From: Bacillus sp. DTU_2020_1000418_1_SI_GHA_SEK_038
GTDB taxonomy: Bacteria; Bacillota; Bacilli; Bacillales; Cytobacillaceae
Length of the DNA: 64,000 nt
Reading direction: 5' to 3'
Assembly: GCF_032341175.1 (NCBI RefSeq)
Contig: NZ_CP135435.1
Coordinates: 2,356,001 to 2,420,000 of the forward strand
This document shows positions 17,283-26,449 of this stretch, in pieces. The number at the start of each line of letters is the position of its first letter. Within the stretch, counting starts at the first letter, position 1. Under the pieces are notes generated by a model. That model was not told the origin of the DNA. It did not search any database and was given only the letters and a program-made list of their open reading frames with translations. The translations under genes and the position numbers were made by a program.

Positions 17283-17323
17283 ATGGCCAGCCTCAAGAAT
17301 TTATAATACGTGAGGCTGGCCAT
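17283..17323. terminator. Bidirectional terminator
   Basis: 13-bp perfect stem ATGGCCAGCCTCA (17283-17295) / TGAGGCTGGCCAT (17311-17323) between the convergent PqqB-like and redoxin genes; ATTTTTG follows on the plus strand. Confidence 0.9.
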
Positions 17324-17333
17324 ATTTTTGTAT

Positions 17334-17843
17334 TTACTTTATTTTTTTATATTCTTCTTCAATATCTTGTACAGTTTGTTCTATCTGTTCGCCCCAATGA
17401 TCATTTACTTTTTTGAAAATGATTTTCCCATTTTGATCCAAAATTCCGTAGCCGCGATAAGCAACATCGCCATTCTTCATTCCGAATCGGTCAATCAATT
17501 CCAGTTTCGGGTCAGAAATAAATGGCAAACTTGTACCAAAATAGTCTTTTAGATGGCTGTATAATTCCTTTTGCTGTTCCGGTGTATCATGGCTGATAAT
17601 AAACATTTCCATATCCATATCATCTAACATGTCAAGATTTCCATGCAACTCAACTAGTTGCTGCTGACAAAGTCCTCAGGTGTATGTTGTAATAAAAAAG
17701 AACAATGCTGGCTTCTCTAACGGAAATGTAACTTCATTATTATCTTGATCTGATAATGTAATTGGATCTTCTAAACCCTTTTGTCCACATGCAGCAAGAA
17801 AAAGCACTGCTGCTAGTGTCAATAAAACCATTCGTAATTTCAT
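17334..17843 (-). CDS. Redoxin-domain lipoprotein, candidate selenoprotein (in-frame TGA at the active site)
   Basis: Thioredoxin-fold AhpC/TSA-like lipoprotein of 169 codons. ATG 17843 follows AAAGGAG with a 5-nt gap. It encodes a lipoprotein signal ending LAAC19, a beta-strand FFFITTYT, then TGA (17678-17676) at position 56, followed by GLC59 and an intact redoxin domain (HDTPEQQ, LPFISDP, GYGILDQNGKIIF). The stop is exactly where the CxxC/TxxC active-site cysteine belongs, giving T-x-x-U-G-L-C. Everything else (signal, ribosome site, frame, terminator) is intact. A hairpin suited to a bacterial SECIS starts 14 bases after the TGA. The alternative is a recent TGC/TGT to TGA pseudogene. Confidence 0.7.
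17645..17661 (-). promoter_or_regulatory. Candidate bacterial SECIS hairpin
   Basis: On the minus strand GCAACT (17661-17656), loop AGTTG, AGTTGC (17650-17645). The apical loop begins 20 nt after the TGA and has G at its second position. Both fit the published bSECIS model (16-37 nt, G in the first two loop bases). The 6-bp stem can extend by two pairs past a bulged A. Confidence 0.5.
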
Positions 17844-18215
17844 AATGTCTCCTTTCTAGGTGCATGAAAAATAAACCATCTAATCCTGGCGATGTAGGAA
17901 ATTGGCATTTTGGCATTCACCTGCATCGTATTACTTAAGATATTGTATAATAGATATCTATCCGAATCCACTAACAAGAATCCAAGTGTATTATAAAAAA
18001 ACTATCCCCAGTGCTTAATTAATCATTCTTAATAATCAAGTATAAATTAAGCAAGAAGCTGCTTTCTAATATTTTTACCTCAAAATTTTTTTCAGATATC
18101 AGCAAAAATTTGAGATAATTAGTTTACATAATAAAATTACAATTAACTATGATTAGATAAAGTTCGAATTTTTACCTTAAACGGTTCTGTGAAATGGAAA
18201 ATTATTAATTAAAAG

Positions 18216-18262: not shown

Positions 18263-18356
18263 GTTTTATTAAAGGTAAAATTTAATTCATGTGTACGAAT
18301 CGCAGGGGAAAAGTAATTTATATAGGAAAATAAATAGTATTATAGGAGGAAGAATG

Positions 18357-19337
18357 ATGAACGAACTAAAAGGCATCCATCATGTAACAGCCATAACAAG
18401 CAGTGCTGAAAAGATCTATGATTTTTTTACTTTTGTTTTAGGAATGCGCTTAGTAAAGAAAACAGTTAACCAGGATGATATAAAAACATATCACTTATTT
18501 TTCGCAGATGACGCTGGAAATGCAGGGACAGATATGACTTTCTTTGACTTTCCTGGTATTCCTAAAGGCGTACACGGAACAAATGAAATTTCAAAAACAT
18601 CCTTTCGTGTCCCCAGTGACGCAGCATTAGAATATTGGGTGAACAGATTTGACCGTCTAGAAATTAATCATACAGGGATTACCGAGCAATTCGGAAAAAG
18701 GACATTATCCTTTATTGATTTTGATGAACAGCATTATCAATTGATTTCCGATGAACATAATAATGGGGTGGAATCTGGGACACCTTGGCAAAATGGTCCT
18801 ATTCCTTTAGAATATGCGATTACTGGCCTAGGTCCAATCTTTGTTCGCATCGCAAATTTTCCCCATTTTAAAGAAATGATGGAAAAGGTCCTCTTATTCA
18901 GAGAAAGCGCTCAGGAAGGATCATTTCATTTATTTGAAGTTGGAGAAGGTGGAAATGGCGCCCAAGTTATCGTAGAAGATAATCCTAATCTCCATCAGGC
19001 TCAACAAGGGTTTGGCACCGTTCATCATGCCGCATTCCGTGTTGAAGACCGCTCTGTTCTAGAAGAGTGGGATAAACGAATTCGCAGCTTCAGAATTCCT
19101 ACATCTGGTTTCATTGACCGTTTCTTTTTTGGGTCCTTGTACTCAAGAGTAGCACCCCAAATATTATTCGAGTACGCCACAGATGGACCTGGATTTATGG
19201 GAGATGAACCGTATGAAACACTTGGAGAAAAATTATCCCTACCACCGTTTTTAGAAGGAAAACGTGAACAAATTGAAAAAATGGTTAGACCAATTGATAC
19301 GATTAGAAGTACGAAGAAAATAGAAAAGGAATATTAA
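18357..19337 (+). CDS. Ring-cleaving (extradiol) dioxygenase, VOC family, MhqO/MhqA-like
   Basis: Two-domain vicinal-oxygen-chelate protein of 326 aa. The N-terminal module starts GIHHVTAIT (first metal histidine). The second module carries GTVHHAAFRVED and the glutamate in ILFEYATDGPGF, completing a 2-His-1-Glu site. The family cleaves hydroquinone-type substrates and protects against quinones in Bacillus. The open frame begins at 18291, but AGGAGG at 18344-18349 points to ATG 18357 (18354 is the alternative). The upstream MhqR-like box supports quinone-inducible expression. Confidence 0.87.
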   Translation: MNELKGIHHVTAITSSAEKIYDFFTFVLGMRLVKKTVNQDDIKTYHLFFADDAGNAGTDMTFFDFPGIPKGVHGTNEISKTSFRVPSDAALEYWVNRFDRLEINHTGITEQFGKRTLSFIDFDEQHYQLISDEHNNGVESGTPWQNGPIPLEYAITGLGPIFVRIANFPHFKEMMEKVLLFRESAQEGSFHLFEVGEGGNGAQVIVEDNPNLHQAQQGFGTVHHAAFRVEDRSVLEEWDKRIRSFRIPTSGFIDRFFFGSLYSRVAPQILFEYATDGPGFMGDEPYETLGEKLSLPPFLEGKREQIEKMVRPIDTIRSTKKIEKEY

Positions 19338-24847: not shown

Positions 24848-24970
24848 CTAAAAAACCTCCCTTGAAAAAATTCAATTAACGCCTTCTTATTTTGCTAGAT
24901 TTAATAAAAATTAACCTCATTTGATGGATTTTGCAATTACTAGCAAATCAAAAATATTTTACTAAATGTA

Positions 24971-26449
24971 TCAAGTTCCACAATAAGTTCTGTACGGAAG
25001 GTTTGAAGGTTCAGGTGTTGTGCAATATTCATTCTGTTCGGATGTATACGCAAAAGGATTTGAAAGAGCTTGGAGCAATCGTTCCATCACACTATAATCC
25101 CCATTGTTTACTGCAGCCTCAAGCGCTTCCTCCACCCGGTGGTTCCGCGGGATGACAGCAGGATTACTGTCACGCATCAACTGTTGAGAGGATTCTTTCG
25201 ATGTTTGCTGCCTCGTCAATCTCGCCGTCCAGAGCTCATGCCACAGATTATAATCAGGGGTGCCGATAAGCGGAGTATCCTCCATCTTGTCTGTTGTTAA
25301 AGCACGGAAGGTATTCGTATAATCCGCTTTAACCTTCTGCATGATGCTCAAAAGTTTTTCTATCATTAATGTATCTCCTGGTTCTTCATTCGTTAATCCA
25401 AGTTTTGCCCTCATGCCAGCAAGCCAGTTTGATTGATAGATTTCACTATATTTTGAAATCTCATCCTGCGCCAGCTTAAGAGCCTGTTCTTCATCATCAT
25501 GCAGCAGCGGGAGAATAGCTTCCGCAAAACGTGCGAGGTTCCAACCGCCTATAATTGGCTGATTACGGTAGGCATAGCGTCCTTGTCTGTCAATGGAACT
25601 GAATACTGTGTCAGGATCATACACATCCATAAAGGCGCAAGGTCCGTAATCAATCGTTTCTCCACTGATGGTCATATTGTCAGTATTCATTACCCCGTGT
25701 ATGAAGCCAACTGATTGCCATTTAGCAATCAATGCGGCCTGTCGCTTAATCAATTGCTGAAGAAATGCAAGATATCTATTTTCATCCTGTTCAATTTCTG
25801 GATAATGACGATTTATCGTATAATCGGCAAGGATTCTTAACTCTTCTACTGGTCTCCAGTTTGCAGCAAATTGAAAGGTTCCAACGCGCAGATGACTGGC
25901 AGCAATACGGGTTAAAATAGCTCCTGGAAGTCCCGTTTCACGAATCACCTTTTCCCCCGTTGTCACAACTGCTAGACTTCGGGTTGTTGGTATACCAAGT
26001 GCATGCATAGCTTCGCTGATTATATACTCACGAAGCATCGGCCCTAATGCCGCTCGGCCATCACCCCCGCGGGAATATGGTGTTCTCCCCGAACCCTTAA
26101 GCTGCACATCAAATCGCTCACCATGTGGCGTCATTTGCTCGCCAATCAAAATGGCACGTCCATCCCCTAACATTGTAAAGTGGCCAAATTGATGACCTGC
26201 ATAGGCTTGGGCTAGCGAATGCGCATGTTCAGGAACCTGGTTGCCAGCAAACACTGCCACTCCATCTTCACTTTTCAGTAACTGAGTATTTAAACCGAGT
26301 GCCTCCACCAATGATTCATTAAATTTGACCATTTTAGGTGTGCGTACAGGTGTCGGCTTAATGCTAGTAAAAAATGCTTGCGGCAATCGGCCATAACTAT
26401 TGTCAAAATTCCAGCCAGCCGCTGTTGCTCCCTCTTCCTTATTTAACAT
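24971..26449 (-). CDS. selO: Protein adenylyltransferase SelO (YdiU family)
   Basis: Pseudokinase-fold AMPylator of 492 aa that transfers AMP to Ser/Thr/Tyr of redox-related proteins. Hallmarks include YAGHQFGHF with the [10 protein letters not shown] strand, [20 protein letters not shown] (nucleotide-binding loop and lysine), [20 protein letters not shown], and the catalytic [24 protein letters not shown] with the metal-binding Asn/Asp. It ends YCGT. Human SELENOO carries selenocysteine near this C-terminus; here the position is an ordinary cysteine codon and no in-frame TGA occurs. Length is normal. Confidence 0.95.

Follow-up and report, generated by a model that had tools for sequence, protein, structure and literature searches.

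We found that a gene in a 64,000-nucleotide stretch of DNA from Bacillus sp. DTU_2020_1000418_1_SI_GHA_SEK_038 (contig NZ_CP135435.1, positions 2,356,001 to 2,420,000; the whole stretch is called the window below) very probably encodes a complete selenoprotein. The gene is on the minus strand (17334..17843) and its predicted product is a redoxin lipoprotein of 169 residues with selenocysteine (Sec, or U) at codon 56, a TGA. Judging from sequence analyses, we put the probability of this reading at about 95%. It is based on conservation of the TGA, the presence of the sel genes, covariation in a selenocysteine insertion sequence (SECIS) hairpin, purifying selection, a UxxC motif and a lipobox. 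The original prediction had proposed a selenoprotein here from the letters of the window, and the first four of these lines of evidence support it.

The reading frame was as first described, unbroken except for one TGA. It starts with an ATG at 17843, ends with a TAA at 17334, and has its single internal TGA at 17678-17676; read through with U56, it gives the 169 residues. Calling open reading frames with translation table 11 gave a 104-amino-acid piece alone, with a TTG start (17648-17334, minus strand), which confirmed the expectation that ordinary gene calling would report only this fragment. Relatives in the searched protein databases are comparable pieces of 92-135 amino acids, or are full-length with the Sec residue given as Trp.

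The original prediction had tied its proposal to selA, selB, selD and the gene for tRNA-Sec (selC), whose absence would speak for a pseudogene. All four are present in the host genome, a single contig of 4,468,467 bases. selA scored 482 bits, selB 357.8 bits (cut-off 242.25), tRNA-Sec 56.7 (cut-off 47) and selD, which is divergent beside selA, 411.8 (cut-off 125). The host selD itself has an in-frame TGA, in the context KAG-U-GCK, and the gene for the alpha subunit of formate dehydrogenase (806.9 bits) has one TGA. Together with the redoxin gene, these two probably give the host at least three selenoprotein genes.

We compared the gene to its relatives in several sets of genomes. In a sample of 121 genomes that includes the host, 66 had some match to the redoxin protein. 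An order-wide search with an alignment of 19 members (397 genomes from 135 genera, E 1e-6 or better) matched 73 genomes spanning 29 genera, each with the family's own TGA gene, a related TGA subfamily, or a fragment. A search of 398 genomes from the phylum matched two, the host and one genome of its family; as the order contributes few of the 398, this only hints that the redoxin family is confined to the order. A scan of named genomes gave 60 loci, including some in Cytobacillus, Neobacillus, Mesobacillus, Planococcus, Aquibacillus and Salinibacillus. Altogether, 119 loci were pooled, 115 of which were anchored by the motif, and there were 83 distinct genes, the host copy included.

All 115 anchored loci have TGA at codon 56, always as U-x-x-C. 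That is, the alignment of homologues that the original prediction called for gave neither TGC nor TGT at this codon, and the distinct genes reach down to 46% identity to the host redoxin. Three of the unanchored loci (L076-L078), read separately, have the TGA with UxxC. The fourth (L075, genome G011) has a frameshift just before the TGA, yet keeps the TGA and UxxC. In genome G211 only a C-terminal remnant was found (L193). Among the order-wide matches, those that lack the TGA are this remnant, the N-terminal part of the G011 copy with the frameshift, and one AhpC-like protein of the ordinary kind (G289, L186). We found no Cys form of the family among the loci, among the best 120 of 202 profile matches, or among the five candidates scored in a region search, of which four matched.

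Two further observations concern the relatives. Ten low-scoring, distant TGA redoxins (L174-L183; E 1e-6 or better) have UxxC and the same hairpin, and all encode QLVxL; their sequences suggest additional selenoprotein subfamilies in the order. The redoxin gene is also carried in records titled Pseudomonas sp. ISL-84, Sporosarcina globispora and Paenibacillus sp. FSL R5-0490 (L092, L110 and L121). Over the frame, all three are identical to copies carried by members of the window's genus, and therefore the record names are probably wrong.

Every genome with a clear TGA redoxin also had SelA (51/51, compared to 89/121 overall; Fisher p 5e-10, kinship ignored). The order-wide sample gave the same picture: 72 genomes had a TGA redoxin of this subfamily or a related one, and SelA was present in all 72, compared to 181 of the 397 overall (p 2e-29, again ignoring kinship). 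The 32 and 216 SelA-negative genomes in the two samples could have given a counter-example, and none did. In 14 genomes compared for tRNA-Sec and full-length SelA, the two agreed throughout (8 above cut-off, 6 not). The genomes with broken redoxin copies, G011 and G211, both have SelA despite the damage.

Downstream of the TGA is a hairpin, GCAACT-AGTTG-AGTTGC (17661-17645, minus strand), with a stem of 6 bp, a loop of 5 nt (17655-17651) and a G at loop position 2, 20 nt separating the TGA from the loop. The bacterial SECIS (bSECIS) model in the legend to Fig. 2 of PMC13188914 has a loop of 3-9 nt, a stem of 4-16 bp, G within the first two loop positions, a UGA-to-loop distance of 16-37 nt and a minimum free energy of at most -7.5 kcal/mol. 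The redoxin hairpin is within all of the limits given in that legend (the 60-nt fold is -10.2 kcal/mol), and the fit to the model that was originally claimed holds for stem, loop, spacing and loop G.

Comparison between relatives also supported the hairpin. In 73 distinct stretches of 48 nt, 99.3% of cells were paired and there were 17 double changes; 0 of 500 shuffles reached either value, and versions of the hairpin slid along the sequence paired at 37.9% at most. G is at loop position 2 in 83/83 genes, and all six pairs form in 80 of them. The partners in the variable stem pair are the wobble base of a Gln codon and the opening base of a Leu codon, and the changes at both are synonymous. 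The pair is A-U in 57 genes, G-C in 19, G-U in 7 and A-C in none, has undergone about 18 changes by parsimony, and shows a stronger correlation (r 0.81) than any other of the 3003 pairings among the gene's variable transition sites (the next is 0.77). Neither of the stem's two Leu codons is ever TTA (0/83 for each), whereas TTA makes up 522 of 1531 Leu codons elsewhere. When 14 more distant sequences were analyzed with 41 of the 73 rows, three of the six pairs covaried, two more than in the family alone. This number of covarying pairs was reached by 1 of 500 shuffles, and the 33 double-change cells by none. A SECIS-like hairpin is thus supported by covariation.

Selection on the protein is purifying both before and after the TGA. 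Compared to the closest relative (G027, 93%), the nonsynonymous (dN) and synonymous (dS) rates were 0.028 and 0.351 upstream of the TGA and 0.031 and 0.316 downstream, giving dN/dS of 0.08 and 0.10, and the 12 codons past the TGA had no difference. Compared to G022, dN and dS were 0.155 and 0.75 upstream and 0.086 and 0.618 downstream (dN/dS 0.21 and 0.14).

Several results weigh against a selenoprotein. The frameshifted copy in G011 and the fragment in G211 indicate that the gene can be lost, and SelA-positive genomes often lack it (38 of 89 and 109 of 181). The co-occurrence p values, which ignore kinship, are inflated. The folding energy of the 60 nt is ordinary (-10.2 kcal/mol, z 0.19; 102 of 200 shuffles are at least as stable), and because it is unremarkable by itself the case for a SECIS rests on comparison. 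In the 73-stretch test, two of the five measures, the number of pairs with a double change and the number of pair types, were reached by every shuffle, because one pair alone varies on both sides; the pair types of the extended test were reached by 73 of 500 shuffles. One stem pair is broken in 3 of the 83 genes. Compared to the more distant L014, the 12 codons past the TGA differ at 6.0 of 7.7 silent sites, which indicates that silent change past the TGA is shaped rather than suppressed.

The damaged copies in G011 and G211, and the fact that TGA is a stop in the standard table, would fit an ordinary Cys redoxin gene that has recently become a nonsense pseudogene. We give this explanation almost no weight: the identical TGA is in 83 distinct genes down to the lowest identity sampled, with purifying selection on both sides of it, a covarying hairpin and full linkage to SelA. 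It is also very improbable that the TGA is read as Trp, that there is leaky read-through without selenium, or that the 104-amino-acid downstream piece is the real product. We gathered 134 proteins, of which 111 do not cover the Sec site and 23 do, the latter being the host protein (Sec written as Cys) and 22 database entries. The 22 entries all have Trp at the site, and none has Cys. This agrees with a Trp reading, but it is best explained by gene callers that used code 4 on short contigs. Moreover, the host selO gene ends at a TGA where 21 of 30 SelO genes have TAA, indicating that TGA is an ordinary stop in this genome. The downstream piece has a TTG start at 17648, but would be without the signal peptide, U56 and Cys59. 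Neither Trp or leaky read-through nor the downstream piece predicts the linkage to SelA or the hairpin.

The read-through protein belongs to the AhpC/TSA-like redoxins, as was originally claimed: residues 29-142 matched Pfam AhpC-TSA PF00578 at 52.1 bits (cut-off 26). Redoxin PF08534 was also above its cut-off (37.9 bits vs 26.6), and our test for a peroxiredoxin fold identified the protein as having one. UxxC is in 83/83 distinct genes, and Cys59 (codon at 17667..17669, minus strand) in all 83. In profile alignments to solved peroxiredoxins, Cys59 fell on the peroxidatic Cys, U56 on the Thr/Ser of the PxxxTxxC motif, and Arg130 occupied the peroxiredoxin Arg position. The PxxxTxxC (or TxxU) motif itself is absent; the protein has T52-x-x-x-U56-x-x-C59 instead, and residue 52 is Thr in 83/83. 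These alignments make U56 the first, N-terminal member of a UxxC pair of the thioredoxin type, set on a peroxiredoxin fold, and not the peroxidatic residue. The original prediction had placed Sec at the peroxidatic or CxxC cysteine; the CxxC-type pair stands and the peroxidatic position does not.

The hallmark of bacterial lipoproteins is a signal peptide that ends in the lipobox Cys. The translated redoxin has such a signal (17787..17843, minus strand), with the lipobox LAAC ending at Cys19, and processing as a lipoprotein is predicted. A lipobox-like motif ending in Cys was found by pattern match in 78 of the 83 relatives; one more has LEAC and four have Phe for the Cys. These four, from Neobacillus and Bacillus (L111, L126, L127 and L133), read LSAFG, Phe having replaced the lipobox Cys, and retain the TGA and UxxC; lipidation may have been lost in them.

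Ribosomes would reach the UGA at codon 56, and SelB bound to the hairpin 20 nt downstream would deliver Sec-tRNA-Sec. Translation would then proceed past the UGA to residue 169, incorporating selenium. After export and lipidation at Cys19, the product would be anchored to the outside of the cell membrane, where Sec56 and Cys59 of the peroxiredoxin-fold domain would act as a selenol-thiol / selenenylsulfide pair, most likely reducing disulfides (or peroxides) outside the membrane and being recharged by a putative membrane donor.

We somewhat favor thiol:disulfide exchange as the main activity. A rival that we consider a little short of an even chance is that the selenoprotein is mainly an extracytoplasmic peroxidase, in which Sec56 (or Cys59) would react with peroxide, a Sec-Cys bond would form, and a donor in the membrane or of the thioredoxin type would reduce that bond. 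The fold, Cys59 and Arg130 are those of peroxiredoxins. The Pro and Thr of PxxxTxxC are missing, however, with the invariant Thr at residue 52 and Sec at the Thr position, and UxxC is a thioredoxin-type arrangement.

We tentatively propose, though we think it somewhat doubtful, that these genes make up a Sec-only Bacillales family of redox enzymes that are anchored to the membrane and act outside the cytoplasm. The active site would be a hybrid in which Sec took the place of the peroxiredoxin motif's Thr and both the peroxidatic Cys and the Arg were retained. The SECIS hairpin, whose sequence codes for the near-fixed QLVxL, would predate the split into subfamilies and help lock the family to Sec, such that loss of the Sec machinery would lead to loss of the gene and not to a switch to Cys.

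The family adds a selenoprotein, of its own or a related TGA subfamily or as a fragment, for 29 of the 135 genera sampled in the order. For SelA-positive Bacillales, it is a likely reason to retain the Sec machinery besides formate dehydrogenase and SelD. A family for which no Cys form was found offers a clear way to ask why selenium is retained in some enzymes, and the hairpin alignment with its compensatory changes is a ready bSECIS reference.

The original prediction had also taken the signals around the gene to be intact. This holds for the lipobox, the domain and a ribosome-binding site seen in the sequence, AAAGGAGA (17848..17855, minus strand), 5 nt ahead of the ATG. It does not hold for the terminator: past the stop is a terminator-like inverted repeat, read by eye, of 11 bp with a 15-nt loop (17285..17321, minus strand; arms 17321-17311 and 17295-17285), but its T tail is weak and it was not among the sites listed by a terminator scan. 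A promoter scan gave 6 sites compared to 5.8 expected, and none was assigned to the redoxin gene.

We found no conserved operon around the redoxin gene in the 60 loci; the widest non-redoxin neighbor families reach 11 of them, and we name no partner. In the window, a gene of the glyoxalase/dioxygenase superfamily (18291-19337, plus strand) diverges from the redoxin gene. In 6 of the 60 loci a relative of it is found no more than 3 kb from the redoxin, and in three of these (L113, L125 and L130) it is directly upstream on the same strand. In eight loci (L080-L087), a small gene that reads as a c-type-cytochrome-like lipoprotein ends shortly upstream of the redoxin gene on the same strand; its product is a possible electron partner of the redoxin in those genomes only. 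A search of PHROGs gave no match. We also considered the window's SelO gene (24962-26449, minus strand) as a second selenoprotein gene, since it ends YCGT-TGA-Tyr-Ile-stop, a possible CxxU Sec site, and dropped it. The codon at this site in 30 SelO genes, the host's included, was TAA in 21 and TGA in 9, and TGA also occurred in SelA-positive genomes; with TAA at that site in 21 of 30, the host TGA is an ordinary stop.

We compared the redoxin to known selenoprotein families, using the accessible portions of the cited papers. By domain and Sec motif it appears to fall in a listed kind, the Prx-like thiol:disulfide oxidoreductase selenoproteins (PF00578, UxxC or UxxU; representative WP_010940744.1; PMC13188914, PMC9312934), with which it shares a score above the PF00578 cut-off and UxxC. 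The descriptions of that kind, in those portions, mention neither a lipoprotein anchor nor an apparent absence of Cys forms. The next closest are the Redoxin family protein selenoproteins (PF08534, UxxC; PMC13188914, PMC9312934) and GOS Prx-like 1 and Prx-like 3 (PMC2398784), which it resembles in its PF08534 score and UxxC. Those are known from metagenomes and have thousands of Cys homologues (PMC2398784), whereas we found none for the Bacillales redoxin in the sets searched here. PrxU and other TxxU peroxiredoxins share the peroxiredoxin fold, and Cys59 and Arg130 correspond to their peroxidatic and Arg residues, but in PrxU Sec is the peroxidatic residue, whereas here Sec is at the Thr and the Cys is kept; the PrxU model NF040737 matched 1 of 58 family members (E 0.0007). 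NF053656 (TUGYCR redoxin) and NF040769 (SelL-related redox protein) are thioredoxin-fold (seleno)proteins with distant similarity, and the redoxin is not a member of either (14.6 bits vs a cut-off of 100, and 28.8 vs 120); none of the eight NCBIfam families listed for it reached its cut-off. We found no description of this Bacillales lipoprotein by word searches in an open-access library; most subscription journals were outside that scope, and absence from print is not established. Within the literature searched, this widespread and apparently Sec-only family of Bacillales lipoproteins seems to be undescribed.
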